This document shows, piece by piece, positions 11,609 to 36,397 of a DNA stretch of 64,000 bases. Source of the stretch: Aurantiochytrium sp. KH105 (lineage: Eukaryota; Sar; Bigyra; Thraustochytrida; Thraustochytriidae); assembly GCA_003116975.1 (NCBI GenBank), contig BGKB01000013.1:62001-126000 (forward strand), given 5' to 3'. Below the pieces are notes generated by a model that saw only the letters and a program-made list of their open reading frames with translations, ran no database searches and had not been told where the DNA came from. Made by a program: the position numbers and the translations under genes. Position 1 is the first letter of the stretch. Each line of letters begins with the position of its first letter.

Positions 11609-12164
11609 GCTTGTCGAAGCTTGCGCGCGACTTTGCGTGCTTGCGTGCTTACGTGCTTGCGCAAAAGTGCATGTGTCCAAGTGACGAATGACAATACCCT
11701 CGCTCTCTTTTTTCTGGCCTGGCCTCACTGCCCGGTTGTTGATGTTCTTGTTATTGTAAAACGGTGTGCACCATAGAGGCTCTGTTGTTGGCACGGCGCA
11801 CGGAGGAATCAACGGATGCAAATTGAGGGCGGGAGGGATAGGGGGTGGGGCGACACGGAGCCGCGGAGGACGCGCTGGGACGCGCTGCGGCGAGGGCCAC
11901 CTCGCAAGCTCGCGCTGCAAGGGAGAGACGCAGAACACGCCTCGACACCGCGTCGGGGTCCATCGTGTCCCGGCAGCGGCCGGGAACCGCGCGTAAAAGG
12001 TCAATTAAAAGGTGTCTTGCGTCAAGAAGAAGAACGTTAGCAGCAGCAGCCTCGTTAGAGCTTCCTTTGTAGCAAAGCCGAGACCTAGCCCCACCGGGGT
12101 GGAGCGGAGCAACCTCGAGGTCTGGAGGTGGTTCTTCGGGCCCGCGCGGGAGAACGTGGCCGCG
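11609..12164. promoter_or_regulatory. Bidirectional intergenic region between unknown protein and dynein heavy chain
   Basis: 556 bases separate the two divergent start codons. Both open frames continue into it without an upstream ATG, so it should contain both 5' leaders and promoters. No TATA box or canonical RFX-type X-box was confidently identified by eye. Confidence 0.5.
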
Positions 12165-15100
12165 ATGGACTCCACGTTCCTTCCCGATGGACGCCGAAGT
12201 AGCAATCAGGAGGACGACGACCCTCGCGTCGAGACCACTCGAGTCGAGCCCGCCAAGTCGCCAAGGGGTCTTCTTCCCTCACCAGCAAGAAAGCTTGCGC
12301 TGGGATTCGTGCCGCCCACGGCTGCATCACCGCGGCACGGGTCGCCGCGACGATGGTCGCCGATGAAGCAGCGTCGAGCCAAAGCACCGCAAACGCCTAA
12401 AACCATCAAAGAACTCAATCTCCTTCAAATGAATGATCAGGACCTTGGTCTTGGGAATTTAGGCTCGCTTCCGCCCTTCAATGCTAGCTTCTCCCCAAGG
12501 CCCCCAACACAGAGCGCACGTACGTCCGGGACACGGGTCTTGTCTGGCCCAAGCGGAGTTACGAGATTCGAGTCGGAACGAGGCGCCTTTTCCGCGAGAG
12601 GACGATTCACCACCGAACCTTCCCAATCTTCGCCAAGGAGCCAGCGCGACGCTCACGAGTCTCCGCGTGCAAGACCGAAAATATCCGTGTCGGAGCTGGG
12701 CAAGGCAGAAGGTATTGCTGAGTATGAGTTCTCTCAAAATGTACAACGCTCGTTTCGCACAGGCGAGGACGCCGTCTCATTTTTCGCGCTACATGGAGCT
12801 AATACACCGCTCAAATTTGTGCATTTGAACCGCGCGCCTCAGGGAAAACGATTCAGACCTTATGATTTGGTTGTGGTGCAACCCGAGGACGTAGACCCAG
12901 AGCACTTTACCATGTCGGCAGCAGGCGTCGTGCGTATTGCTCCGGGCGAGCCATCTGGATTCACACCATTGTCCGAGTGGATGCGTTTGTCCACGACCTT
13001 TAATGTCATCTCTTCAATTCGTTTCTTCAAACACTACCTCGTCTTCAAAACATTCCATCTCTGGCGCTCGAGCATTCGATACAATTTGTACAATTTGCAG
13101 CGCAAAAAGCTGGCTCAGAGGCTCTTCCTTGCGAAAAAGTCATTTTGCGAGCCACTTCTCGAAGTAAACAAGTTCATTGCCGATATGCATGACGTGACTC
13201 TTCTTGATCTGCGGTCGCAAAAGACGTATGAGGCAAACCATTTTGCAGATCACCAGACCCAGAAACGAACGCATGCCGCAAAAGAGCTGGAGCGCATTAT
13301 GGAAAAGCTTCAGCACGTCGTTGAGCGAGTGTGCACGGAGGCCACGCGCAGAGCCAAGATTAGCAACGAAGCGTTCCAGAGCAGCATCGATGGCTCAAGC
13401 AATCCTCGCGAGCTTAAGTCGCGGTCGCTTGTCGCGCTGAAAAAGGAGCGCGCCGATCGCGTGCGAGCACTAAAGACAGCCATGCACGAAGCGTCAATGC
13501 TCGGCGACTTCATCCGTCTGGCCGACTACATGTGCGTCGAGAATCTTGTTAAAATGTGCCTTCGCTCGCATAAAAACATGCTCGACGAGCTCATGCGGAC
13601 TTCGAGAAAGAACGGCATGTTTGAGACCGCGGTGCGCTTCACGCCAGAGCGCGAGCTGCAGTTTGTTCCCGACTGCGAGCGCATCTTGGCTCTTCTAGAA
13701 GACCTCAGTGCTTCCACTGTAAGGGCGGTGGGTTCCGTCCCGCGCATCATTTTTATTCGTCCCTTCAAGGGGATTGTGGCCCCTCTTATTGTCGACAGCC
13801 CTGACGTGCGAAACCTCGTCGTGTCTTCATCATATTTCAACCATCTTCGCAGACGCATGGATGCCAAAGTTGACGCTGACTTTGCCGATGCACAAGAATA
13901 CGCTGCCACCTTTGAGCAGCTTATGCCCATATTCGCCTACAACCAAGACTTTGACTTTGAGGCATACAAAAATCGCCCCGAGCTCGAGCTCAGCACAATC
14001 AAGAATGACATGGCGGTGCTTTCCGCCTGGGGAAAGGATTTGGAAAAGATGCGTGTGGGGAACACCGTCGGAATCCTCTATGTCGAGTCGCGCAAGCTTC
14101 GCGGCTCACTCCACCCCATTATCGAGCGTGGCTTGGATCGCATGAAGTCTCTTCTCGCAGACTTGGCCCGTGAGAAATGCGGCACCCTTCTTGAGCACTA
14201 TAAACTACGCATTCGCGAGCTTGATACACAGCCTGCCATTCTTCGCGAGTTCGCAGCGCACGTCAAGTACGTGCAGCAGCTGAAAGACGACACCCCAGAA
14301 ATGCTGCGGAATTCCGCCACAGTTGAGGAGATGTACCGTCTCTGCAACACATACGGCGCACGGGTCTCGTCCGTCGATATGGTTCAGTTCGATGATCTCA
14401 AACACTTTACAGAGACATTTGCTACCAATCGAAAGGATGCGGAGATCTTTATTGCGTCCAAGCTGCCGGAAATGACGCAGACGCTCGACATGAATATTGC
14501 CAAGCTCGGAGACCAACTCGTTCAACTGCGTCAGCATATTCAGTCTGGGGTCCTTGTCAACCCAGACACCGAGCCTAAGATTGCTCTGGATGACCTCGAA
14601 GCCGTGCGTGCCAAACTGGACCAATTTACTGATCTCAGCAAGACATACTCGCAGTACCAGGAGCTCTTTGGTATCCCCGTGTACGACTACAAGAACTTGC
14701 GCGAGACTGAAGACGCCTACCAAGTTCAGTTCAATCTCTGGACCACCATCAAGACATGGATGGAGAAGACGTCCGCGTGGTATCATTGCGACTTTCTACA
14801 GCTTGACGTCGAGACGCTTGCGCAGGAGACGCAAATTGTGTTCAAGGATGCAAGCCTTGCCAACAAGCGCCTCGCAAATGCTGTGACACAACGCTTCCTC
14901 GACGCGTGCACGGACTTCAAGTCGCGAGTGCCCGTTGTGCTTGAGCTGGGCAATCCTTCTATGCGCCCACGTCACTGGGAGCAGATTTTCACTGCGCTCG
15001 GGCAGCCGTGGTTTCCATCAAGCACCTTCACACTCGACAATCTCACCGATTACGACATTTTTGGCAAGTCGGCCTTTGTTAGCGAAATTTCAGGCATTGC

Positions 15101-18100
15101 CTCGGGTGAGGCTGCGCTCGAGGCCTCGCTTGCAAAGATCAAACAGGCCTGGGACGACTCGCGTTTCGAGCTCCTTCCCTACCGCGACGCCAAGAGCGTC
15201 TATATCCTCGGTGGCCTCGAAGAGATCTTTACGTTGCTCGAGGACCACCAAGTCACTTTGCAGACAATGATGGGCTCTCGCTTTCTGCAGGGCGTCCGAA
15301 CTGAGGTTGAAAGGTGGCAGCGCAAACTCTCGCTGCTTGCCGATACGCTCGACGAGTGGGTCGCTTGTCAGCGCAACTGGATGTATCTCGAGACCATTTT
15401 CTCGGCAGATGACATCCAGCAGCAGCTCCCCGAAGAGGCCGAAAAGTTTCAGATGGTGGATCGACTTTGGAAAGACGCTCTCCTTCGCACCAAAGAGGAA
15501 CCCCTCGTGATCCACTGCATCTCTCGAAGCATGCTGCAGAGCGGTAAGGGGCCTTCAGCGCCCTCTGCCAAGCCTGGCGAGGGAAAAGACGGTGCCGCAT
15601 TAGAGAATCCTGAAGACAGCGATAAGCTTTTGCAGCGTTTCGTTTATTGCAACCAATTGCTCGACGAGACGCAGAAATCGCTCGAAAACTATCTCGAGAC
15701 AAAGCGGTCAGCCTTTCCGCGTTTCTACTTTTTGTCCAATGACGAGCTCTTGGAAATTTTGTCGCAAACGCGAGACCCTCACGCCGTGCAAGCGCATCTG
15801 GCCAAGTGCTTTGACTCGATGAAGTCGCTGCACTTCCAGCCCGAGTCCGAGGCGCCAGCAGCTTCCGTGCCCAATCTCATTCTTGGAATGACCTCTGCCG
15901 AGGGCGAGTACGTCAAATTTGATGCCACGATTGATCCAAACGGGCGGCCTGTCGAGTCTTGGCTTGCGTCAGTCGAACAAGCCATGCGCGCAACCCTCTA
16001 CACACGCACAAAGGATTGTCTCAAGGACTATAGCACGGTGTCACAAATCTCACGCCGCGAATGGATCTTTGCGCACGTTGCGCAGAGCGTTCTTGTGGTC
16101 GATCAAATTCTCTGGACGCAGAATACTGCCGCAGCGCTGCGCGACAATGCTGTGGCGAATCATTACGAGTTTTCTTTACAGCAGATCGACGCTATGATTC
16201 AGATTGTACGCGGGTCTCTCACAAAGCTTGAGCGCACCCTGGTGGGTGCCCTCATCGTCCTCGATGTGCACGCCCGCGATGTCGTCAATCAATTTCAGAA
16301 ACAAGGGATTGCCTCAACTTCGAATTTCGAGTGGACTCGCCAACTACGCTACTACTATGATGTTGACGTCGAGGATGTCATGGTGCGTCAGACAAACACT
16401 TCATTTCGATACGCATACGAGTACCTCGGTAACACGCCTCGCCTCGTGATTACACCGCTCACCGATTTGTGCTACATGACGTTAACCGGCGCGCTCCATT
16501 TGCGCTTCGGCGGAGCTCCTGCGGGCCCAGCTGGAACGGGAAAGACAGAGACCACCAAGGATCTCGCCAAGGCACTTGCTGTGCAATGCGTTGTGTTCAA
16601 TTGCTCCGATGGTCTGGATTACAAGATCATGGGCCGATTCTTCTCCGGCCTGGCGCAGTGCGGCTCCTGGAGCTGCTTCGACGAGTTCAATCGAATTGAT
16701 ATTGAAGTCCTCTCTGTCATCGCGCAGCAGATTCTCACCATTCAACAAGGCATCATTCACGACCAGACAGAGATTGACTTTGAGGGCAAGCGTATCCCTC
16801 TGAATGCCAATTTTGGCGTCTTTATCACGATGAACCCAGGATATGCGGGCCGCACAGAGCTACCCGACAACTTGAAGGCTCTGTTTCGGCCCGTGGCAAT
16901 GATGGTCCCGGATTACCGCCTCATTGCCGAGATCATTCTCTTTTCCGAAGGCTTCAGCAACGCGCTGCCCTTGAGCAATAAAATGACGCAGCTCTACAAG
17001 CTGAGCTCGGAGCAACTCAGCAAGCAGGACCACTATGATTTTGGAATGCGCGCCGTCAAGTCGGTCTTGGTTGCGGCCGGGAATTTGAAGCGCATGGAGC
17101 CTGACACGAGCGAGGACCTGCTTCTGATTCGCGCTATGCGTGACAGCAATGTACCCAAGTTCCTCGAACACGATCTTGATCTCTTCAAGGGGATTCTCGG
17201 GGATCTCTTTCCTGGCCTGCAAGTACCCTTTGTGGACTATGGAGATTTGCAGGAGGCGATCGAGGCTGAAATTGTTCGTGAAGGCCTGTCTCCAGTCCCA
17301 TCCTTTGTGCGAAAGGTCATTCAGGTGCACGAGACTCAGCTCGTGCGACATGGCATGATGCTTGTCGGTGAGACGGGTTCGGGGAAAACTACGAACGCTC
17401 GGATTCTTGCCAAGGCTTTGACTTCGCTCGCAAAGAGACGGGGACCCGATGCTCCGGAGGACGCCTTTATTCAGCAAGTGCAGCGCATAATTTTAAATCC
17501 CAAGTCCATCACAGCAGGAGAGCTGTACGGCATGTTCAACGACCTCACGGGCGAGTGGAAAGACGGTCTGGTCCCGCACATTGTGCGATCCGTTATTCGA
17601 GAAGAATCTGGTCGCAAATGGATCGTCTTCGATGGTCCCGTTGATGCCGTTTGGATTGAGAATATGAATACAGTGCTTGATGACAACAAGACGCTGTGTC
17701 TGGCAAACTCTGAGCGTATTAAAATCCCATCCTCGGTGCACATGCTCTTTGAAGTGCAGGATCTCGCGGTTGCATCCCCAGCGACGGTGTCGCGGTGCGG
17801 TATGGTTTACATGCAGCAGCTCCATATTGGCCAGGCGGCACGCGTCGATGCGTGGGCCCGAAGCATTGGCCTCGAGGACATGATTCCATCCCAAGCTTCA
17901 CGTCTGTGCAAGCTTATCAAAGAACGTCTTCCCGCAGGAATCGCGTTTGTTCGCCGCGAGTGCACCGTGAATATCCCAACGTCAGAAGCACACGTGCTTG
18001 CCAACTTTCTCAAGCTCATGACCTCTCTGCTTGCCTTCCAGGATGTAGTCGAGTCGCATGCGTCGCTCGAGCGGCTCGTCAACATGCTGTTTGTATATTG

Positions 18101-21100
18101 TTTTGCTTGGTCCGTTGGGGCGGACATTGATGGCAAGGACCAAGCGCGATTTTCGGAATACACGATTCGAGAATTGGCCCCACTTCTCGACGGGGCTGGA
18201 AAAATGGAAAATGTGTTCAATTACTTTGTCGAGCCCTCGAGCGCAGCTTTCATACCCTGGTCGCGTGCCGTACCTACGTTTGAGTACCAAATGACCACGC
18301 CGTACTTTGATCTGCTCGTGCCAACGCCGGAAACGACAAAGTACACGTATCTACTTCGTCTCATGGCACTGAATAAGAACAATGCGCTAATCATGGGAGA
18401 AACGGGTGTTGGCAAGTCCGTCATCATCAGTCAATTTCTTCAGCGTATTTGCGCCGAGGAGGCCGTTATTCCCTCTTCGGGCGCCGGACCTCAGGATGGT
18501 GACCTGCAATCAGGTCTGCTGGGAAGCGAAACCATTAGTGATCGCAAGCCATCTCTGCACCGCGGCACGAGCCTTCGCTTCAGTCGTTTGCGCAACAACC
18601 GATCAAGCGAGTTCACGCATGCGATCATTAACTATTCTGCACAAACGCATCCGCACAACGTCTCGGAAATTCTCGAGGCCAACTTGGAAAAGAAGCGCAA
18701 AGCACTGCTTGGCCCGCCCGGTGGGAAGCGAATGCTTCTCTTTGTTGACGATCTCAACATGCCCACGCTCGAGACATATGGCGCACAGCCGCCGAACGAG
18801 CTTCTCCGCCAGATCATCGACCAAGGTGGCTTCTACGACACCGAAAAACTGTTCTTCAAGTCTGTACTGGATGTCAACATCATGGCAGCCTGCGCCCCAC
18901 CCGGTGGCGGACGTAGTCACGTACCAGCACGCTTGCTTCGTCACTTTAACACGCTCTGGATGCCGCAACTTGCGAGCTCGTCGCTCCAGTCGATCTTTGA
19001 AGCCATTCTTGGAGGATTTCTCAATGCAGAGCTTCCGGTATACGCGGAGCTGGCAGCGCCGCTCGTGCGAGCGAGCATCACGGTGTACGAGAGTGTGCTC
19101 AAGGAGATGCTCCCCACTCCAAGCAAGAGTCATTACACCTTTAATCTTCGTGATCTTAGCAAGGTCGTTCAAGGTGTTCTCATGGTGCGCGCTCCGGCAT
19201 GTCAGGATAGAAACACGCTGCTGCGGCTTTGGATGCACGAAGAAGCGCGTGTCTTTCGAGACCGCCTTCTTTGTGTGGAGGACAGGACCTGGTTTGACGA
19301 AACGTGCGCGGACGCCCTTCGAGCCTTTGTGACAGGATTGGAAGCTGCTACACCAGAAGGCTCCGATCAAAGTGCGCTCGTGTTTGGTACCCTAAAGCAG
19401 CAGGATTCACGCGCGTATGAGCTCGTTGCAAGCTCCTGGGAAGAGGTGACGGCGCTTGCCGGGCTTTTGACCGATCATCTCGATGAGTACAACATGACAT
19501 TTCCAACACGGATGGATTTGGTCTTTTTCCGCGACGCCATTCTTCACGTTGCAAGAATATGCCGCGTGCTCTCGCAGCCGCGCGGCAATGCTCTGTTGAT
19601 CGGCGTGGGCGGCTCGGGTCGACAGAGTCTTACTCGTCTGGCCACTTTTATTTGCGGATATGCTTGCGAGTCGATCGAGATGACACGAGGATACGGGCCT
19701 GCAGACTTCCACGAGAGCCTCCGAGGAATCTTGCTGCAGGCAGGCTGCGAAGAAAAGCATGTGACATTTCTTTTTAGCGACACGCAGATCGCGCACGAGA
19801 GCTTTTTGGAAGATATCAATAATCTCCTTAACTCTGGCCAGGTTCCTAATCTCTTTGAGCCAGAGGACAGGGAAAAGATACTCAGCGCGATGCGCCCTAT
19901 TGCAAAGGCCAAAGGGCGCTCTGAGGCCCGCGACGATTTGCTGGCGCTCTTTACAGATCGCGTTCGGGAACAGCTGCATATCGTGCTTGCGTTTTCGCCA
20001 ATCGGATCTGCTTTTCGTGCACGGTGCCGCAAATTTCCGTCTCTGGTAAACTGCTGTACAATCGACTGGTTTGATCCCTGGCCTCAAGACGCGCTCTACT
20101 CGGTGGCACGGTTCTTTCTTATCCAGAACGATCGTGCGTTAGGTATTGAGGCGTATGTGGATCCGCTGTGCCAAATGTGCGTACACATTCACAAGTCTGT
20201 CGAAGAAGCGAGTGTCGCCTTTCAGGAAGAGATGGGCCGCTACAATTACACAACGCCAACGTCATACCTGGAGCTGATCCGCGCATACAAATCGATGCTA
20301 GCGCAGCAGCGCGAGGCCGTGTCACAGCGCCTCGCGCGGTATCAAAACGGACTCTCCAAGCTCAAAGAGACCGAGGAGGTGGTGGCAGGTCTACAGGAGA
20401 CGCTCACAGATCTTGTCCCGAACCTTGAAAAGGCCCAAGCAGACACTTCTGCACTGCTCGAGCGCCTGGCCGCCGACCAAGAGGTTGCTGACGCTGCCAA
20501 GGAAGTGGCTACCAAGGACGAAGCCGTTGCTCAGGAGGTGGCAGCGGAAGTAAACAAGATCAAAGTCGAGTGTCAAACTGATCTCGACGAGGCTATGCCT
20601 GCGTACGAGTCAGCCGTTCAAGCGCTCGATCTTCTCGACAAGAAATCGATTCAGGAGGTCAAGTCCTTTGCGCAACCGCCAGAGCTCGTTGCATTCACAA
20701 TGGAGGCCGTGTGCATATTGCTTGGTGTGAAGCCGGATTGGGCGTCCGCAAAGAAGGTGCTCAACGATCTCAACTTTTTGCAGCGCCTTATCGACTTTGA
20801 CAAGGACAATATTGACCCAAAGAAGATCCGCAAGCTCGCCAAATATGTCAACGAGCCGGACTTCAATGCCGAAAAGATGAAGTCCGTCTCCAGCGCAGCC
20901 TGTTCTCTTTGCATGTGGGTGCATGCAATTGTCAAGTACGATTCTGTCTGCAAGAACATTGCACCGAAAAAAGCTAAACTCGCAGAGGCTGAAGCAAACC
21001 TTGCCACGGTGGAGAAGGAGCTTGCACAGAAGCGCGAGAACCTGAGCGCCATTACGGCCAAGCTCGAGGCCCTGCAATTGCAGTATGACGAGAGTCTGCA

Positions 21101-24100
21101 AAATAAAAAGGACATCGAGGCCAAGGCACAAAACACAGAGGTTCAACTTGAGCGTGCGCAAAAACTAATCTACGGCCTCGCTGACGAAAAGGTACGCTGG
21201 ACAGAGCTGGAGGCAACCTTGCAGGTTGATCTGAAGAACCTTGTGGGTAATATGATTCTCGCAACGGGCAGCATCGCCTATCTTGGACCCTTCACGGCGA
21301 GCTTTCGCGCGCGTCTCGCAAAGGGCTGGGCGCAGCTTTGCCGCAAGAAGAATATTCCAGTGCAAAACACGGAAGTGTCCGTCGAACGGCTGCTTGCAGA
21401 CCCGGTTGCGGTGCGTCAATGGCACATCGACGGTCTTCCTGCAGATCGCTTCTCGACAGAGAATGGCATCATTGCCACGAGCGCGCGACGCTGGCCTCTT
21501 CTCATCGATCCGCAGGGCCAAGCCAACAAGTGGGTTCGCAACACGTATGCGCAGCGAGGTGATGGCGGGCCAGGAAAGGACGCGAACGAACTGCAGGTTA
21601 TCAAGCTCTCCAATAACGACTTTTTGCGTTCGCTCGAGAACGCAGTACGTTTCGGGAGCCCGGTGCTCCTGGAGAACGTTGGTGAGACACTTGACGCGAC
21701 GCTCGAACCCATTCTTCTCAAACAGACCTTTAAACGGGCTGGCCAGCTCCTGCTACGCATTGGAGACAGCGACGTTCCTTACTCGGAGGAATTTAAGCTC
21801 TTTATCACGACCAAGCTGCCTAATCCGCACTACATGCCCGAAGTCATGGTCAAGGTGACGGTCATCAACTTCACTGTGACGCTTTCAGGACTCGAAGACC
21901 AGCTGCTGGTGGACGTTGTGCGTTGCGAACGCCCTGACCTGGAGCAAAAGAACGACGAGCTCGTGGTGTCCATTGCCAATGACAAGCGCGCGCTCAAAGA
22001 TATTGAGGACAAGATTCTCCAAATGCTCGCGAACTCATCAGGAAATATTCTCGATGACGAAGAGCTCATCGAGGAGCTCGGCAAGTCCAAAATCACCTCG
22101 CAAGCAATTTCAGCCCGCATGGACGAAACAGCTCTGACGACGGAGGAGATCAACGCTGCAAGAAATGTATACCGACCCGTGGCGAAGAGAGGGTCCGTAT
22201 TGTACTTTGTGATTGCATCTCTTCCGGCCATCGACCCAATGTACCAGTTCTCACTGCAGTACTTTTCCAAGCTGTTTGTGCTCGTTATCGAGTCCGCGGA
22301 GCAGGAGTCTGACGTTGATCGGCGCATTCTTCAGCTTCTCGACGTCATTACGGCAAAGGTGTATGCCAACATTTGCCGTGGTTTGTTTGAGCGGGACAAG
22401 CTTGTCTTCAGCTTCAAGATGGCCGTGGAAATTTGGCGAAATGACGGGCGCATTCCCGAAGTGGAGTGGCGTCAGTTTCTTGTGGGCTGCCTTGAGCCAG
22501 AAAGCGGATCAGCTGCAGGAACACAAGAAAGCGCCGCGGATCCACCCGAGTATCTTCCAGACAAGCGGGCTTGGGTGGAGCTCTGTGCATGTGATGCGCA
22601 GATGCCTGCCTTCACGGGCCTGCTTGCTTCAATGCAACATGAAAACGATGGCGCGGCCTGGGCCGACTGGTGCGAGGCGGAGAGTCCGCATGAATGCGAG
22701 CTTCCGGGCGACTGGGAGTCGCAGGTGAGCCCATTCCAGCGGTTGCTGCTTGTTCGCGCCTTGCGAAAGGAGAAATTACGGGCTGCGACCTGGCACTTTG
22801 TGGCCAAAGCGCTTGGACCTTCGTACGCTGACTCGCCACCATTCGATCTCCATGGCGCTTACGCCGACTCAACCGCCGTGACACCGATCATTTTCATTCT
22901 CTCGCCTGGAGCAGATATCAACGACTACTTTTTAGAGATCGCTCGAGAGTGCGGGAAGAGTGGCGCGAGAACAAAGATGATCTCGCTGGGTCAAGGGCAA
23001 GGGCCCATCGCAGAGAGACTCATTGTGGAAGGCCGCGAAACAGGTGACTGGGTATGTCTTCAAAACTGCCATTTGGCGGTGTCCTGGCTTTCGCGCCTCG
23101 AGCAATTGCTCGAAGCTGTAGATCCGCAACAAGTGCACCCAGAACATCGTTTGTGGCTCACTTCTGATCCGAGTCCAAAGTTCCCAGTGGCTGTCTTGCA
23201 GAATGGTATCAAGATCACCAATGAGCCCCCCCGCGGTCTTCGGGCGAACATGGCGCGCAGCTTTGCCGACCTCAGCGCCGACGAGTACCTTGCTGGTTCG
23301 CCCACTTGGAAGCGTCTGCTATACGGCCTCGTCTTTTACAACGCGCTCATTCTAGAGCGTCGCAAATTTGGTGCTGTCGGGTGGAACATACCGTATGGAT
23401 GGATGAACTCGGACATGAAAACGGCCATGATGCAGCTCAAGCTGTACCTTGCCGAGAGCGACTCGAATGGGGATGAGATCCCGTTTCAGACTTTGCTCAC
23501 TATGGTGGGCGACGTGACGTATGGAGGTCGCATCACGGACCGAATGGACCAGCGCACGAACCGTTCTATCCTCATGCAATTTTTCAATCCTGAAATTCTT
23601 GCTGATGGCTACTCGCTTGTGGGAGACGCCGAGGGAATAAAATCCGCGCCGTCATCTTCATCAGTGCATCAGCCTGGGGTGTACGAAGTCAAAGCAGGCG
23701 AATCGCTCGAGATTGTCCAGTCGGCAATTGCCAATCTTCCTTCCACGGACCGACCTCCTCTCTTTGGACTGCACAGCAACGCGGATATTACCTTCCAGCA
23801 AAACGAGACGAACGAGATGCTCGCAACGCTGATTGCCTCTCAAGTTGACGATGGCGAGGCAGGCACGAGCGGGCCCGGAGATAATGATGATCTTGAGGAG
23901 GCAGAGACTTCAGATCTTCAACCGACGGGGCAGCAAGACGGAATGGAGGCCGGCGCAGAAAGCGACAATGAGGTCGTGGCGCGTCTGGCAGGGCAGATCC
24001 TTGAGCGTGTGCAGCGCATGCCGCACCTCTCGCGAGATGACCCTAATGCCTCTCCGGAGACCTTTGCGCTTCTCGATGGACGAGTAAACTCCCTGGGTGT

Positions 24101-24905
24101 CTTTCTTCACCAGGAGATGACTCGCTTTGAGCATTTGCGGGCATGTGTGGAGTCTTCTTTGCAGGAACTCGACAAGGCTACACGTGGACTGGTGGTTATG
24201 TCGGCAGAGCTCGAGGACATGTTCCAGCGGCTTTTGTATCAGCGTGTCCCTGCTTCCTGGCATGCAGCGGGTTATCCGTGTCTTAAGCCTTTGGGAAGCT
24301 GGACGAACGACTTTCTCGCGAGGCTTGACTTTTGCCACTGCTGGCTTACGCAGGGACCGCCAACCTCGTACTGGATCTCGTCATTCTTCTTCCCACAGGG
24401 ATTTATTACATCTGTCTTGCAGATGCATGTGCGCAAGACACAGACGCCGATCGACGTTCTGACCATCCGCACGCACCTGACGGCTATTGGGTGCGGGTCT
24501 GATGTTAATGGCAGCCCTAGTCTTGCAGGCGTACGAGCGCCCAAGCACGGTGTTTACATTCATGGTCTCTTTATGCAGGGTGCCCGCTTTGACGCAGAGA
24601 GGTCGATGGCGATTCAGGAGTCGTTCCCGAAGGCTCTCTTTGACGAAATGCCACTCATCAATTTGGCCCCCTCACGAACTGACGTGGCGGAGGATGAAGA
24701 GGAAAAGGAACAAGCTGCGGGTCTTGGGACAAGAAAAGAATACACTTACAGCTGTCCTTTGTACAAGACCTCATTGCGTGCGGGAACGCTCTCCACCACA
24801 GGCCACTCCACCAATTTTGTCATTGCGCTGGACATTCCATCACAAGTGGACCCGAATCACTGGGTGCGCCGGGGCGTTGCGCTCTTGACAATGCTAGATG
24901 ACTAG
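12165..24905 (+). CDS. Axonemal dynein heavy chain (inner-arm type), single exon
   Basis: 4246-aa motor subunit that walks on axonemal microtubules in the flagellum. The four nucleotide-binding AAA modules are all present: AAA1 GPAGTGKT beginning at residue 1454, AAA2 GETGSGKT at 1735, AAA3 GETGVGKS at 2078 and AAA4 GVGGSGRQS at 2480. The AAA1 surroundings (TTKDLAKAL, FNCSDGLDYK, CFDEFNRI) are typical of axonemal heavy chains. The stalk coiled coils lie about 2700-2815 and 2935-3010, flanking the microtubule-binding domain. The tail starts with a Pro/Ser/Arg-rich disordered segment. The C-terminal domain ends with CPLYKTS..GTLSTTGHSTN, a signature shared by the single-headed inner-arm group (DNAH1/3/6/7/12); I do not assign one paralogue. 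A basic/Ser-rich insertion sits at about 2090-2145 in AAA3, and an acidic one at about 3905-3935. The first ATG in frame is 12165. Confidence 0.95.
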   Translation: MDSTFLPDGRRSSNQEDDDPRVETTRVEPAKSPRGLLPSPARKLALGFVPPTAASPRHGSPRRWSPMKQRRAKAPQTPKTIKELNLLQMNDQDLGLGNLGSLPPFNASFSPRPPTQSARTSGTRVLSGPSGVTRFESERGAFSARGRFTTEPSQSSPRSQRDAHESPRARPKISVSELGKAEGIAEYEFSQNVQRSFRTGEDAVSFFALHGANTPLKFVHLNRAPQGKRFRPYDLVVVQPEDVDPEHFTMSAAGVVRIAPGEPSGFTPLSEWMRLSTTFNVISSIRFFKHYLVFKTFHLWRSSIRYNLYNLQRKKLAQRLFLAKKSFCEPLLEVNKFIADMHDVTLLDLRSQKTYEANHFADHQTQKRTHAAKELERIMEKLQHVVERVCTEATRRAKISNEAFQSSIDGSSNPRELKSRSLVALKKERADRVRALKTAMHEASMLGDFIRLADYMCVENLVKMCLRSHKNMLDELMRTSRKNGMFETAVRFTPERELQFVPDCERILALLEDLSASTVRAVGSVPRIIFIRPFKGIVAPLIVDSPDVRNLVVSSSYFNHLRRRMDAKVDADFADAQEYAATFEQLMPIFAYNQDFDFEAYKNRPELELSTIKNDMAVLSAWGKDLEKMRVGNTVGILYVESRKLRGSLHPIIERGLDRMKSLLADLAREKCGTLLEHYKLRIRELDTQPAILREFAAHVKYVQQLKDDTPEMLRNSATVEEMYRLCNTYGARVSSVDMVQFDDLKHFTETFATNRKDAEIFIASKLPEMTQTLDMNIAKLGDQLVQLRQHIQSGVLVNPDTEPKIALDDLEAVRAKLDQFTDLSKTYSQYQELFGIPVYDYKNLRETEDAYQVQFNLWTTIKTWMEKTSAWYHCDFLQLDVETLAQETQIVFKDASLANKRLANAVTQRFLDACTDFKSRVPVVLELGNPSMRPRHWEQIFTALGQPWFPSSTFTLDNLTDYDIFGKSAFVSEISGIASGEAALEASLAKIKQAWDDSRFELLPYRDAKSVYILGGLEEIFTLLEDHQVTLQTMMGSRFLQGVRTEVERWQRKLSLLADTLDEWVACQRNWMYLETIFSADDIQQQLPEEAEKFQMVDRLWKDALLRTKEEPLVIHCISRSMLQSGKGPSAPSAKPGEGKDGAALENPEDSDKLLQRFVYCNQLLDETQKSLENYLETKRSAFPRFYFLSNDELLEILSQTRDPHAVQAHLAKCFDSMKSLHFQPESEAPAASVPNLILGMTSAEGEYVKFDATIDPNGRPVESWLASVEQAMRATLYTRTKDCLKDYSTVSQISRREWIFAHVAQSVLVVDQILWTQNTAAALRDNAVANHYEFSLQQIDAMIQIVRGSLTKLERTLVGALIVLDVHARDVVNQFQKQGIASTSNFEWTRQLRYYYDVDVEDVMVRQTNTSFRYAYEYLGNTPRLVITPLTDLCYMTLTGALHLRFGGAPAGPAGTGKTETTKDLAKALAVQCVVFNCSDGLDYKIMGRFFSGLAQCGSWSCFDEFNRIDIEVLSVIAQQILTIQQGIIHDQTEIDFEGKRIPLNANFGVFITMNPGYAGRTELPDNLKALFRPVAMMVPDYRLIAEIILFSEGFSNALPLSNKMTQLYKLSSEQLSKQDHYDFGMRAVKSVLVAAGNLKRMEPDTSEDLLLIRAMRDSNVPKFLEHDLDLFKGILGDLFPGLQVPFVDYGDLQEAIEAEIVREGLSPVPSFVRKVIQVHETQLVRHGMMLVGETGSGKTTNARILAKALTSLAKRRGPDAPEDAFIQQVQRIILNPKSITAGELYGMFNDLTGEWKDGLVPHIVRSVIREESGRKWIVFDGPVDAVWIENMNTVLDDNKTLCLANSERIKIPSSVHMLFEVQDLAVASPATVSRCGMVYMQQLHIGQAARVDAWARSIGLEDMIPSQASRLCKLIKERLPAGIAFVRRECTVNIPTSEAHVLANFLKLMTSLLAFQDVVESHASLERLVNMLFVYCFAWSVGADIDGKDQARFSEYTIRELAPLLDGAGKMENVFNYFVEPSSAAFIPWSRAVPTFEYQMTTPYFDLLVPTPETTKYTYLLRLMALNKNNALIMGETGVGKSVIISQFLQRICAEEAVIPSSGAGPQDGDLQSGLLGSETISDRKPSLHRGTSLRFSRLRNNRSSEFTHAIINYSAQTHPHNVSEILEANLEKKRKALLGPPGGKRMLLFVDDLNMPTLETYGAQPPNELLRQIIDQGGFYDTEKLFFKSVLDVNIMAACAPPGGGRSHVPARLLRHFNTLWMPQLASSSLQSIFEAILGGFLNAELPVYAELAAPLVRASITVYESVLKEMLPTPSKSHYTFNLRDLSKVVQGVLMVRAPACQDRNTLLRLWMHEEARVFRDRLLCVEDRTWFDETCADALRAFVTGLEAATPEGSDQSALVFGTLKQQDSRAYELVASSWEEVTALAGLLTDHLDEYNMTFPTRMDLVFFRDAILHVARICRVLSQPRGNALLIGVGGSGRQSLTRLATFICGYACESIEMTRGYGPADFHESLRGILLQAGCEEKHVTFLFSDTQIAHESFLEDINNLLNSGQVPNLFEPEDREKILSAMRPIAKAKGRSEARDDLLALFTDRVREQLHIVLAFSPIGSAFRARCRKFPSLVNCCTIDWFDPWPQDALYSVARFFLIQNDRALGIEAYVDPLCQMCVHIHKSVEEASVAFQEEMGRYNYTTPTSYLELIRAYKSMLAQQREAVSQRLARYQNGLSKLKETEEVVAGLQETLTDLVPNLEKAQADTSALLERLAADQEVADAAKEVATKDEAVAQEVAAEVNKIKVECQTDLDEAMPAYESAVQALDLLDKKSIQEVKSFAQPPELVAFTMEAVCILLGVKPDWASAKKVLNDLNFLQRLIDFDKDNIDPKKIRKLAKYVNEPDFNAEKMKSVSSAACSLCMWVHAIVKYDSVCKNIAPKKAKLAEAEANLATVEKELAQKRENLSAITAKLEALQLQYDESLQNKKDIEAKAQNTEVQLERAQKLIYGLADEKVRWTELEATLQVDLKNLVGNMILATGSIAYLGPFTASFRARLAKGWAQLCRKKNIPVQNTEVSVERLLADPVAVRQWHIDGLPADRFSTENGIIATSARRWPLLIDPQGQANKWVRNTYAQRGDGGPGKDANELQVIKLSNNDFLRSLENAVRFGSPVLLENVGETLDATLEPILLKQTFKRAGQLLLRIGDSDVPYSEEFKLFITTKLPNPHYMPEVMVKVTVINFTVTLSGLEDQLLVDVVRCERPDLEQKNDELVVSIANDKRALKDIEDKILQMLANSSGNILDDEELIEELGKSKITSQAISARMDETALTTEEINAARNVYRPVAKRGSVLYFVIASLPAIDPMYQFSLQYFSKLFVLVIESAEQESDVDRRILQLLDVITAKVYANICRGLFERDKLVFSFKMAVEIWRNDGRIPEVEWRQFLVGCLEPESGSAAGTQESAADPPEYLPDKRAWVELCACDAQMPAFTGLLASMQHENDGAAWADWCEAESPHECELPGDWESQVSPFQRLLLVRALRKEKLRAATWHFVAKALGPSYADSPPFDLHGAYADSTAVTPIIFILSPGADINDYFLEIARECGKSGARTKMISLGQGQGPIAERLIVEGRETGDWVCLQNCHLAVSWLSRLEQLLEAVDPQQVHPEHRLWLTSDPSPKFPVAVLQNGIKITNEPPRGLRANMARSFADLSADEYLAGSPTWKRLLYGLVFYNALILERRKFGAVGWNIPYGWMNSDMKTAMMQLKLYLAESDSNGDEIPFQTLLTMVGDVTYGGRITDRMDQRTNRSILMQFFNPEILADGYSLVGDAEGIKSAPSSSSVHQPGVYEVKAGESLEIVQSAIANLPSTDRPPLFGLHSNADITFQQNETNEMLATLIASQVDDGEAGTSGPGDNDDLEEAETSDLQPTGQQDGMEAGAESDNEVVARLAGQILERVQRMPHLSRDDPNASPETFALLDGRVNSLGVFLHQEMTRFEHLRACVESSLQELDKATRGLVVMSAELEDMFQRLLYQRVPASWHAAGYPCLKPLGSWTNDFLARLDFCHCWLTQGPPTSYWISSFFFPQGFITSVLQMHVRKTQTPIDVLTIRTHLTAIGCGSDVNGSPSLAGVRAPKHGVYIHGLFMQGARFDAERSMAIQESFPKALFDEMPLINLAPSRTDVAEDEEEKEQAAGLGTRKEYTYSCPLYKTSLRAGTLSTTGHSTNFVIALDIPSQVDPNHWVRRGVALLTMLDD

Positions 24906-30949: not shown

Positions 30950-32875
30950 CTAAGAAGAGCACGAAAAGAAGGCAACGCCTGGCTTGCGACGATGGCTCTC
31001 GGGAACACGTCGGTAGTAGGCGGCCTCGAGATCCGGATGTTCGTCGTACGGCGTCTCAAACAGCTTTTGCATGGTGCGAAACGGGCCGTAGTCCTTGTTT
31101 TCGGCAGCTTCGTAAGCTTCCTTGAGCATCCATTCGCGCGGCACGTACTTGGGATTGTTGGCACGCATGGTGGCGAGACGCTTTTCTTCAGACATGTCAA
31201 TGTCGGCATGGACCAGGACGAGCCACTGTGTAGCCCAGTTCTCGAGAGCCTTGCGCTGCTCCGCATCGAGAGGCTCGTAGGCAGCACGCTCTTCGAGCAT
31301 GGCGACGAGGTCCGGAGCATTCTGGCGACTGATGACATCGTTTGTGACATTCGAGAGCTCGCGGAAGAAAATCGTGTAGTCCATGTTGATGAGTGCCGGG
31401 TAGAGTGGCTGCCACAAATCCTTTTCAAGGCTCTCCTCGTCGTCGCCAGGGCGAGCACTGGCACTGAGGCCGAGCTTGGCACGAATCATGGCGTTGCGTT
31501 CCTCCGCAAGCATGGCTGGGTACCCGTCGCGCACAATCTCCTTGGCGCGAGCCAGGACATCAGGGTCACCCTCCTCCAAAAGAGGGGTGATGGCCTGAGC
31601 AAAGGTGGCGACATTGACCTGAGCGGCAACGCGTTGGCGCTCAAAGCCGAACTTGCGATCCGGGTCACTCGTGAACGGGGTCCACAGCGGGTGGTACGAC
31701 TCGATGAAACCAAAGGGGCCATAGTCCATCGTGAGTCCGCTAAGAAGACAGTTATCCGAGTTCATGTTTCCTTGCACGTAGCCAACCCGGTTCCAGGCGG
31801 TGGCGAGGTGCGCTTGGCGCCGGGCGAGGACCGCGAGCATATCCACGAGGACTTCGGGCCAGCCAGACTTGATGCGAGGGACCAGGTTGGGAAACTCAAT
31901 GCGGATGCAATGCTTGAGAAACTTTTCGAGGCCTTCCTTAGCACCCTCCTCGCCGCGCGCAAGTCGGCGCATGTAGAGTTCCGCTTGACCGACGCGCAGA
32001 AACGAACTGGCGGCACGGCACGTGATGGCGCATCGTTCCTTGCGCATGGTATCGGGAGGGAAATCGTAGTTGGAGGCCGGGACGGTATCACGGTACCAGG
32101 CACGCGGCACGGTCTCGACTTCCGAGGCAACGAGGGAAACGGCGCGAGTGGTTGGCACCCCCAAATGGTGCATGGCCTCGGAAACGAGGAACTCGCGGAC
32201 GCTGGAGCGCAGGACGGCGCGGCCATCAAAGCTACGAGCAAACGGCGTGGGTCCGCATCCCTTGAGCTGAAGCTCCCAGCGTGCGCCATCGGCGCCCACG
32301 TACTCGCCAATCGAGCATGCGCGGCCATCGCCGTAGCCCTTGCCGTTGAAGGGGTCGGGCGACTCGATGGGTTGACCAAAGACAGAGACGGCGTAAGGCG
32401 TGCACCAGGAGTCGACGCCCTTGGTGTCTGCGGAAAAGAGGTCGAGAAAGTCCTCGCTGTCGATCATTTCCTGCGAAAGTCCGAGGCGCTCGCTCATGTC
32501 CTTGGAGATGGCGATGCGGTACGGCTGGTGGAGCGGGGTCGGTTCGATGCGCACATAGTGGCCCTTTTCCACGGGTCGGGACTCTCTGTTGGGGAAGAGC
32601 TCGCGTTCGCGCGGGTCTGCGTCCAGGTCTCTGAGCAGCGAGTTCTCGCGGCGGCCCAGAAAGGGTCCCAGCACGCCCTTGGTGATGGCGGCGTCGTCTT
32701 CGGCTGCCATCTGGTGGAGCAGCGTGGCCACCCCTCGCTTCGGCACGATCTCCGGCGCGGGCGGCGCCGCGAGCGAGGCCTGCGTCCTCTTCTGCGCCTT
32801 TGCTCCCCGCTCGTGAGGCTGTACGCTGCGCAGCTGCCTTCCGAGTCGAGCAAGGCGGTCTGCCTGTCGCGACAT
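30950..32875 (-). CDS. Selenoprotein O homologue (SelO/YdiU protein AMPylase), Cys form
   Basis: 641 aa from ATG 32875. SelO is a pseudokinase-fold enzyme that transfers AMP to Ser/Thr/Tyr hydroxyls of proteins, usually in mitochondria. Hallmarks seen are FNGKGYGDGRACSIGEY (176-192), ELQLKGCGPTPFAR (Lys205), and the metal/catalytic block GNMNSDNC (Asp374) and MDYGPFGF (Asp384). The Arg-rich N-terminus (MSRQADRLARLGRQLRS) could be a mitochondrial presequence. Sec-containing SelO proteins end in C-S-U-S-S; here the last residues are F-F-S-C-S-S before TAG, so the Sec position is Cys and the partner Cys is Phe. The frame continues upstream to 33895 through Gly/Arg-rich low-complexity sequence, which I treat as leader. 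A 975-codon open frame lies on the opposite strand and is a shadow. Confidence 0.9.
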   Translation of the reverse strand: MSRQADRLARLGRQLRSVQPHERGAKAQKRTQASLAAPPAPEIVPKRGVATLLHQMAAEDDAAITKGVLGPFLGRRENSLLRDLDADPRERELFPNRESRPVEKGHYVRIEPTPLHQPYRIAISKDMSERLGLSQEMIDSEDFLDLFSADTKGVDSWCTPYAVSVFGQPIESPDPFNGKGYGDGRACSIGEYVGADGARWELQLKGCGPTPFARSFDGRAVLRSSVREFLVSEAMHHLGVPTTRAVSLVASEVETVPRAWYRDTVPASNYDFPPDTMRKERCAITCRAASSFLRVGQAELYMRRLARGEEGAKEGLEKFLKHCIRIEFPNLVPRIKSGWPEVLVDMLAVLARRQAHLATAWNRVGYVQGNMNSDNCLLSGLTMDYGPFGFIESYHPLWTPFTSDPDRKFGFERQRVAAQVNVATFAQAITPLLEEGDPDVLARAKEIVRDGYPAMLAEERNAMIRAKLGLSASARPGDDEESLEKDLWQPLYPALINMDYTIFFRELSNVTNDVISRQNAPDLVAMLEERAAYEPLDAEQRKALENWATQWLVLVHADIDMSEEKRLATMRANNPKYVPREWMLKEAYEAAENKDYGPFRTMQKLFETPYDEHPDLEAAYYRRVPESHRRKPGVAFFSCSS

Positions 32876-33873
32876 GCCTCTCTTCTGCGTCCGTCCGATA
32901 CTCCGCTGCTTGCTTGCTTGCTTGCTTGCTTCTTTACTTACTTTCTTGCCGCCTCCGAGACGGCGTCTCTCTCTCGCCCACTCCCTGCTTTTTGTTTGTT
33001 TATGGTCTCGCTTCCGCTCTCGACGAAGGATGAGCGAGCTAGCGATAGCTCGCTCTCGGCGCTCGGCTCTTCGCGGTCGCTCGGTTCTTCGCGGTCTCGG
33101 CGACTTGGACGAGCTCGGGTTTGGTTTTTGGTGGCGAGCAGGTCTTTGCGGGTTTGCTGCGATTTGGTCATGGCCATTTCTGCTCGCTCGCTGCTTCTCC
33201 GCCTCTCCTGCTATTTCATATACCACCTGAAGAGCTCTGCAAATGAACAAGCAGCAAACAACAAGCAAGTAACAGCACGCACCAGCAGCAACAGCAACTG
33301 CAAGCTTTCGCAGCTCGCAACCAACCCGCCAACAGAGCCACCTCGCCGTGACGCGCGGGGGACCTCCTGGACGTCCTCTCCACTGCCAAAAGCCAACGTG
33401 CACCTCACCTCCTCCTCCTCCTCCTCGACCAGCATCAGTGAGCAAACTCTCTCCCTCGAGGGGTGTCACCGTCCTCGGTGTGCGACCGATGCACGCCCGC
33501 GAGCGAGCGAGCGGCCGTCCGCACCGTGTGCACCTCCCTCCTCCCCGCCGCGCTGCGCCGCCGCGACGCGGGTCGCGCCGCGCGCCGCGAGCGGGGCGAC
33601 CAGCATGCTCCTCGCGGGCGGCGCGAGGCGGCCGTGCACGTGCTGGAGCGCCTTGTGCTGGTCCTCTTGCTGGTCGCGGACGCGGGCCCGGTGTGGGCGG
33701 CGGGGGCACCCGGCGCGCACGCAGCAGCGGCCGCGAGCAAGAGAGAGAGACCCCGCCGGTAACATCGCGCGCCGCCGCGTCATGCCTTGAGTCCGCGCGC
33801 GCAGCGCCTGCGAGGGTGGTGTGGCGCGCACCGACATATCGACACCGCGGCGCGCCGCAGCATTGGCCGTGCC

Positions 33874-33897
33874 GCATCCGCATCCGCATCCGCATCC
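33874..33897. repeat. (GCATCC)4 hexanucleotide repeat
   Basis: Four perfect tandem units, a one-base expansion of the GCATC pentamer at 28564-28610. Confidence 0.9.
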
Positions 33898-33920
33898 CCG
33901 GCGCCAGTGGCCGTGGATGC

Positions 33921-33958
33921 AGAGCAGAGCAGAGCTCAGCAGAGCAGAGCAGAGCAGA
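33921..33958. repeat. (AGAGC)n pentanucleotide array
   Basis: About seven units with one variant (AGCTC). Same pentamer family as 3791-3840. Confidence 0.9.
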
Positions 33959-34871
33959 CTGGTCTCACCGCCGCGCCGCGCCGCGCGCGATGTGATGCGA
34001 CCGTCCGTCGGCGACCAGCCAGTGCAGCTGCAGCTGCAGCTTCAGGGTGTTGACGCGGAGGACGGGGACGAGGACGTGGTTTTCATGCACGCTGCCGTTG
34101 CTTTGTTGCTGATGCTCGCGGCAGTGGCAGATGCGTGCACGCGTGAATGTACGTCGGGCTTGTGGCCTGACTGAGGCTCCGAGGGTTGTGCGCGCATCCC
34201 GGGGCTCGCTCGCGGCGAGCGGGAGAATCCGCGCCAAGCCGCCACCGCAGGCCGGGGACGAGCCACTTCGACGCGGCCTGCACTGACTGGAGGCGACGCC
34301 TAGCGGTCGACTTGTACCGCTGATGCTTGCCGCGTATGACTCGAAAGTCAGCTCCGCATTATGGCGCGATGCACTCCCATCGCCGCAGCGGCTGCTTTCG
34401 CTGTCGCTGTCGCTGGCGCTGTCGCGCGAGACCGCCGTCCGCAGCCGACATGCGACTTGCGAGTCGCAGTCGCAGACGCTGGTGTGGCGATCGAGGCACA
34501 TCCGCCAGTGACTGAAAAAGAAAGGAGAAAGGAAAAAAGGACCGCCGAGCCGAACGCAAGCGCAACGCAAAGCGAAAAGCACAACGTGGAAAACACGAAG
34601 GAAGACCGGAAGCAGTTGCTGTTGCTAGCTTCTCTAGAACAAAGACGAAGCGCAGCACGAATGTAAGCAAAATGCAAACGTAAGCAAACACAGCAAAGCC
34701 ATGCACGAAGCGCAGAGCTCAAGCAAAGCACAAGCGAAGCGAAAACCAGACGCCATGGTATGCAAATGTCGCACAGGAAATGAACACGCGGCGCTTCGTA
34801 AAAAGCAAACGCATGGCGAGCTAGCATACAGCAAACGTAACGCAGTTGCATACGTGAAGCAAAGAACGCAG

Positions 34872-35353: not shown

Positions 35354-35415
35354 GTCTAACCCCGCCACGCGGCTGCTATGCAAAGCAGCACTATTTTACG
35401 TGACGGGATTGTCAT
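35354..35415 (-). promoter_or_regulatory. SECIS element (type II-like) in the 3' UTR of the glutathione peroxidase gene
   Basis: On the minus strand, ATGAC (35415-35411) is followed by a 13-base arm (35410-35398). Unpaired AAAA starts the apical region, which holds a GCTGC/GCAGC mini-helix. The second arm (35370-35358) pairs with the first at all 13 positions, three of them G-U. AGAC (35357-35354) follows. This supplies the UGA/GA quartet core, the helix of 11-13 bp and the apical adenines that define a eukaryotic SECIS. It lies 160 bases after the stop codon, where a SECIS must act to recode the upstream UGA as selenocysteine. Confidence 0.88.
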
Positions 35416-35574
35416 CAGGTGGCAAACTTGTAAGCGGTGAGACGAGTCCTACTACAACAGAACAAAACTCATGGTCCTGGCGGTCGCGTGCCTTCGACTT
35501 GCGAACAGACACGGAATAGGCACTCCCTGCATAAGGCTTTTGGGGGCGGTTCAGAGTGGACCACCAGCAATTCC

Positions 35575-36397
35575 TTAGCTCAGGAGCTCCTTAATGTCGT
35601 CCTTGATCGGCTGCTCAAACTTCTCCGGGTGAGGATGGTAGCGCTTGATCGGCTTGCCGTCGGGACTGATGAGGAACCACTCAAAGTTCCAGATGACGTC
35701 CTGCGGCACAACCGGGCACCATCCCGCCGTGCGGAAAGTCTTGTTGTTCTGGATGCCGAACGGGTTCTCAAACTCATACTGCGGCGTAGTGTTACGCAGC
35801 GGCATGGCGTTGATGAGCGTCTTCCAGAACGGGTGGATGTTCTCGCCTGCGACTTCGCACTTCTCCATCAGCGTGCAGTTGGAGATGAAGCCCTATCGAT
35901 CGCAATTGCCAAGCAAGCCAGCCAGCCAGCCAAGCAGTACTTCGTCAGTCATAAATTCCTTTTTCGCCCTACTACATGTAGTCAGGCATGGCACTGCATT
36001 GTCTTCGTATTGGACTTACCTCACCAGGGCGCACGTGCTTGAGCGAATTGAGAATCTCCTCCTTGTCGTGGTAGTTCTGGTATCCGTGCTGGTTGCACGG
36101 GAACAGAAGCACCTCGAGCTTGTCGCCGTACTGCTCCTTGAGCTCGTTGGCGAGTTTAAACCCCATGGTCGTCGTGCCTCACGTGGTTGCCACGTTCGAC
36201 ACGAGGACGGCCTTGCCCTTGAGGTCGTCCAGCTTGACGGTCTTGCCCTCAATGAGCGTCTTGGCCTCCATGCCTGCGCCGATGAGCGTGTGCTCGCTCA
36301 TCTCGTACCGCGTCCGCTTGTTGCTCTCCGCCATGGTGCTCAGCCCGCGCCACGAGCTCCCCACCACGCGACTCTGTCGCACCGCCGCGCGAAGCAT
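35575..36397 (-). CDS. Glutathione peroxidase, selenocysteine-containing, two exons
   Basis: Join of exon 1 (36397-36020) and exon 2 (35892-35575), 231 aa. It reduces hydroperoxides with glutathione or thioredoxin. In exon 1 the sequence NVATT is followed by an in-frame TGA (36181-36179) and then GTTTMGF, exactly where the GPx active-site Sec or Cys belongs, so this is Sec73. The tetrad is completed by Gln103 (FPCNQ) and Trp194-Asn195 (WNFEWFL). The intron is phase 0 between PGE and GFISNC. The longer start (36397) adds MLRAAVRQSRVVGSSWRGLST, a typical mitochondrial presequence; ATG 36334 would give a cytosolic form. Read without Sec recoding and splicing, the gene looks like three fragments. 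A SECIS is present downstream. Confidence 0.92.
35893..36019 (-). other. Spliceosomal intron of the glutathione peroxidase gene
   Basis: 127 nt with a consensus GTAAGT donor directly after the GAG codon and a TAG acceptor before GGC, restoring the conserved PGE-GF junction of GPx in phase 0. It contains a short (GGCT)n run. It is the only intron demonstrable in the window. Confidence 0.9.

Follow-up and report, generated by a model that had tools for sequence, protein, structure and literature searches.

In the accessible part of a survey of 36 algal genomes, GPX, SELENOU, SELENOT, and TXNRD are given as the most widespread selenocysteine (Sec) families, with GPX and SELENOT each occurring in more than half of these genomes (PMC7539508). 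The glutathione peroxidase (GPx) gene of Aurantiochytrium sp. KH105 described here belongs to the same widespread family, although the survey, in that part, deals with algae, whereas KH105 is a thraustochytrid. It is an ordinary gene of a well-known class and, judging from its sequence, is almost certainly a functional two-exon eukaryotic selenoprotein gene in which UGA codon 73 is decoded as Sec.

The stramenopiles include Hyphochytrium catenoides. A tRNA for selenocysteine is reported from this species (PMC5795050). No account of selenoproteins of thraustochytrids, Schizochytrium, Labyrinthulomycetes, or Aurantiochytrium was found in the literature covered by title and start of abstract, a scope outside which most subscription papers fall, and the available main text of PMC5330540 and PMC2746813 does not mention thraustochytrids. 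With the present locus, a lineage whose selenoproteins are not described in the literature covered gains a well-supported selenoprotein gene, along with a set of Sec-decoding genes that is almost complete.

Gene structure and protein family

The coordinates of the gene and its neighbor are collected in Table 1. Read on the minus strand and spliced, the gene starts with an ATG at 36397 and encodes a product of 231 residues. Its in-frame TGA (T36181, G36180, A36179) is codon 73 of 231 and is flanked by NVATT and GTTTMGF; direct reading of the minus strand confirmed it as originally described at 36181-36179. The GT-AG intron predicted between two exons is exactly 127 nt long (36019-35893), and the unspliced frame runs into stops. 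Exon 2 by itself gave no Pfam match. Met22, in the context ACCATGG, is a possible second start, which would give a product of approximately 24.1 kDa in place of the 26.4 kDa calculated for the full-length protein. The window (the whole 64-kb stretch of DNA analysed) also holds a 4298-residue open frame at 12009-24905 on the plus strand.

Table 1. Features of the Sec-GPx locus (positions in the window).
Feature	Position	Strand	Remarks
Sec-GPx gene and SECIS	35354-36397	minus	Whole gene and element fall inside this interval
Exon 1, Sec-GPx, codons 1-126	36020..36397	minus	Pfam GSHPx 63.5 bits with TGA read through
TGA codon 73, read as selenocysteine	36179..36181	minus	Catalytic Sec column of solved GPx; retained in C24 copy
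GT-AG intron, 127 nt	35893..36019	minus	Starts GTAAGT, ends ATAG; stops in frame if unspliced
Exon 2, Sec-GPx	35575..35892	minus	TAA stop at 35577-35575
SECIS	35354..35414	minus	Quartet, 13-bp helix, and apical AAAA (own scanner; both copies)
SelO gene, next downstream of GPx	30950..33964	minus	Pfam SelO 249.6 bits; context only

The spliced protein matched PF00255 with 86.1 bits (curated cut-off 27), while it matched two NCBIfam bacterial GPx models below their cut-offs. The best of 42 matched PDB sequences were GPX2 (2he3, 4.1e-40), GPX1 (2f8a), and the glutathione peroxidase 1gp1, structures of human and bovine enzymes, 1gp1 being bovine GPx1. In this search, the alignment to GPX2 and GPX1 extends through residue 230 with homology on both sides of the TGA, 1gp1 shows X where codon 73 aligns, and the alignment of GPX4-type chains ends near residue 152. 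The alignment to GPx families that the original prediction had proposed as a check gave a GPX1/2 match with the Sec column at codon 73. We read the enzyme as GPX1/2-type rather than GPX4-type because it shares with GPX1 and GPX2 a C-terminal segment that the GPX4-type matches do not reach. It also has in common with 2he3, 2f8a, and 1gp1 the Sec position, the CNQ and WNFE motifs, and the VRPG segment. Residues U73, Q103, W194, and N195 fall, by sequence position, on the catalytic positions of the family, the GPx catalytic tetrad.

Several differences from the solved enzymes were also found. Compared with 2he3, the KH105 protein has approximately nine extra residues (7 + 2) between approximately 158 and 182, and GTTTMG in place of GTTTRD. 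Its N-terminus is longer than those of GPX1 and GPX2, with a Met1-Met22 stretch resembling a mitochondrial targeting peptide; judged by eye, the residues ahead of Met22, MLRAAVRQSRVVGSSWRGLST, look like a mitochondrial presequence. Dual targeting, mitochondrial from Met1 and cytosolic from Met22, is plausible because of this presequence-like N-terminus together with the ACCATGG at Met22.

Among the eight GPx matches in the genome, the other six (three genes with two copies each) have no internal TGA, and the three further genes, as read in L013-L015, carry Cys at the Sec position. L013 (C30) is a tandem pair of Cys-GPx genes; L014 (C33) and L015 (C47) are two copies of one Cys-GPx with a signal-like N-terminus and the ending TKEL.

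SECIS element

Eukaryotic SECIS elements with an apical mini-hairpin, the class called form 2, have in common with the KH105 element the TGAN/NGA quartet, the 13-pair helix, an unpaired apical run of A, and the extra hairpin. In KH105, the quartet consists of TGAC (35414-35411) and AGA (35357-35355), and the helix of 35410-35398 with 35370-35358 is unbroken, all 13 pairs being standard when G-T is counted. The apical stretch of 27 nt (35397-35371) begins with AAAA (35397-35394) and folds to a mini-hairpin of six pairs. The element begins 160 nt beyond the TAA stop that ends at 35575; the fully paired 13-bp helix with AGA core and apical adenines that had been predicted at this distance is indeed present.

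A pattern scan was applied that looked for TGAN, a helix of at least nine pairs with one mismatch tolerated, apical AA or CC, and NGA. On both strands of the window, it returned four sites, of which the GPx SECIS was the sole perfect one with at least 12 pairs. When the 503-nt 3' region was shuffled 2000 times with its dinucleotides preserved, no perfect 12-pair site arose. Similarly, in 31 loci of the genome, scanned on both strands and totalling 115,222 bases including overlaps, perfect sites of at least 12 pairs were found only in the GPx and SelT genes. The folding energy gave moderate thermodynamic support, with z of -1.42 over 116 nt, where 16 of 200 shuffles were as stable, and -2.53 over 81 nt, where 1 of 200 was.

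The SelT genes came from six Rdx-family matches in three pairs, one pair of which carries a TGA in FCTS-TGA-NYRKNF (CTSU) and is, we presume, SelT-like. This SelT-like selenoprotein is encoded in two copies, L028 (C70) and L029 (C181). In both, the 3' UTR holds a SECIS that starts with TGAC and has 13 perfect pairs in the same geometry as that of GPx; it ends in TTGAT, the GPx element in TAGAC, and its helix has G-T in one copy and G-C in the other.

Unlike known eukaryotic SECIS elements, the KH105 GPx element is unrecognised by the SECIS models of Rfam. The original prediction had named a covariance-model hit as a check and its absence as evidence against the gene, and no such hit was obtained: Rfam SECIS_1 (RF00031) gave no match genome-wide, with 133 of 925 candidates scored, and the SECIS families of Rfam gave none at E up to 10 in a 401-nt stretch; two chance matches were all that the Rfam searches yielded. 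The 14 control genomes searched with RF00031, all prokaryotes, were likewise without a match. We judge the Rfam model too insensitive for the KH105 element because the same genome-wide search was silent at the SelT SECIS too.

When a covariance model was derived from the GPx SECIS alone, using both copies, it placed all 13 pairs of the SelT SECIS in register but scored them weakly, at 10.0 and 10.2 bits. With the filters switched off, these matches had E of 0.5-0.6 in 25 kb and held ranks 4 and 3 among 15; with default filters, the SelT SECIS was lost. Under this model, the GPx SECIS read in antisense scores a little above the SelT SECIS because the element is nearly palindromic. MAFFT alignments of the GPx and SelT SECIS, whether complete or after removal of 13 nt from the apical part of SelT, were discarded because the helices fell out of register.

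Sec machinery in the genome

The genome searched has 367 contigs and a total of 76.0 Mb. Pairs of matches on different contigs, consistent with two haplotypes, were obtained for GPx, SepSecS, eEFSec, SPS, Rdx, L7Ae, PSTK, MsrA, and tRNA-Sec. EFsec, SBP2, and tRNA-Sec, as inferred in the original prediction, were all present as genes. Two of three tRNA-Sec matches, at 73.5 and 70.2 bits (C170 and C78), lie above the Rfam cut-off and were called tRNA-SeC(tca) by ARAGORN, while the third, sub-threshold match was called tRNA-Ser. SepSecS has two matches (best 407.7 bits), as has eEFSec, the frame of which matches the eEFSec of PDB (5izk) at 1.3e-132. There are 12 L7Ae-domain matches in six pairs. 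The pair with the lowest scores (33.6 and 33.5 bits) lies in frames of 1061 and 1075 amino acids, and its sole PDB match is SBP2 (3.4e-24, with 167 residues of L044 as the query). A pair of PSTK matches reached 65 bits against a family cut-off of 382 and is also matched by KTI12 and AAA models; as its score is far under the cut-off, it is a weak candidate for PSTK.

SPS (selD) has two matches, at 276 and 272 bits against a cut-off of 125. The frame is fused at its N-terminus to a pyridine-nucleotide oxidoreductase and has Cys instead of TGA; it is the only SPS found, in two copies (L030, C78:196000-200500), a Cys form whose fusion partner is NADH-dehydrogenase-like. NADH-SPS fusions are known from scattered protists and are ascribed, in the part of the source considered, to transfer from bacteria (PMC4561486). 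The KH105 fusion also matches the NCBI family 'fusion_not_SelD' (442 bits, cut-off 700) and nonetheless occurs in a Sec-decoding genome. In both copies, tRNA-Sec and SPS are located on one contig (C78 and C170), approximately 66 and 63 kb apart.

The second copy and alternative explanations

A second copy of the Sec-GPx gene lies on contig C24. Of 2093 aligned columns, 1850 are identical (88%), and indels are numerous in the flanks and the intron. The coding sequence of this copy differs by eight substitutions, all synonymous, five of them downstream of the TGA, and both the TGA and the protein are retained. With random changes and a synonymous fraction of 0.21, the chance of eight in eight is approximately 5e-6, and that of five in five after the TGA is approximately 3e-4. 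The C24 intron has 153 nt instead of 127 nt, a difference that is not a multiple of three, with conserved borders, and the SECIS differs at two places, a C-G pair of the helix that became T-G and a change in the loop of the apical hairpin. If the TGA were a Cys codon misread in sequencing or assembly, the gene would be an ordinary Cys-GPx, in agreement with the Cys found at that position in the three other GPx genes. However, the same TGA stands on two different contigs that share 88% identity over 2.1 kb, amid distinct synonymous differences, and a SECIS lies downstream of GPx in both copies. The error for TGC or TGT that the original prediction had considered is made very improbable by the second contig, and the TGA is taken as genuine.

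The copy on C24 bears equally on the idea that the gene is a pseudogene in decay, ended by the TGA as a true stop and followed by a SECIS-like hairpin that arose by chance. The modest folding-energy rank of the 116-nt stretch and the missing Rfam SECIS match would suit such a gene, but none of the eight changes is non-synonymous, those after the TGA included, the intron borders are conserved between the copies, and the geometry of the GPx SECIS recurs in the unrelated SelT-like gene, leaving this explanation with hardly any probability. Reassignment of TGA throughout the nuclear genome, for example, to Cys or Trp, would account for the two genes that are open only with TGA read through. This is also extremely unlikely, since TGA ends, in at least one copy, seven of the 16 genes checked, which were matched by other models (13 of 32 loci, taking in each the in-frame stop met first beyond the match). 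These 32 loci are what remains of 36 rows after leaving out L006-L009, in which the first stop may be intronic (TGA in three of four). Between the two copies of eEFSec (L018 on C184 and L019 on C85), the stop is TGA in one and TAA in the other, and the presence of tRNA-Sec and SBP2 argues against reassignment as well.

Decoding of the TGA as Sec remains the preferred reading, and the gene structure, its conservation, the SECIS anatomy, and the machinery genes, PSTK as a weak candidate, were observed directly. In this gene, SBP2 would bind the SECIS in the 3' UTR, and tRNA-Sec, delivered by eEFSec, would decode UGA codon 73 as selenocysteine. The selenolate of U73, presumably partnered by Q103, W194, and N195, would use glutathione to reduce peroxides, in a mitochondrial form starting at Met1 and a cytosolic form starting at Met22. 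Actual Sec insertion, enzyme activity, and the existence of the two forms are what we infer from these features.

A wider picture is tentative, and we give it somewhat less than an even chance. A non-photosynthetic, DHA-making, thraustochytrid-like stramenopile might keep a small Sec system (at least GPx and SelT), supplied by a single bacterial-type fusion of an NADH-dehydrogenase-like domain with SPS, in which a GPX1-type enzyme, mitochondrial and cytosolic from two starts, possibly protects highly unsaturated lipids. Long uninterrupted frames, the size of the genome, and a PfaA-type match below its family cut-off are suggestive of such a thraustochytrid-like host. Gene predictions in thraustochytrids may cut GPx and SelT short at the TGA, and selenium may deserve attention as a nutrient, should the host be an oil-producing thraustochytrid.

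Other selenoprotein-related genes

The count of selenoprotein families, at least two (GPx and SelT), is a lower bound. AhpC-TSA_2 of the SelU type has no match in the genome, and MsrA has four matches (two genes in two copies each), with Cys in both loci read. The open frame of the KH105 SelO, the next gene downstream of GPx, ends in ...FFSCSS without a TGA and apparently has Cys at the site of Sec in the SelO of animals. The genome also has a match to PfaA-type polyunsaturated-fatty-acid synthase (930 bits, cut-off 1010, positions 6-1035), in two copies cut by contig ends.
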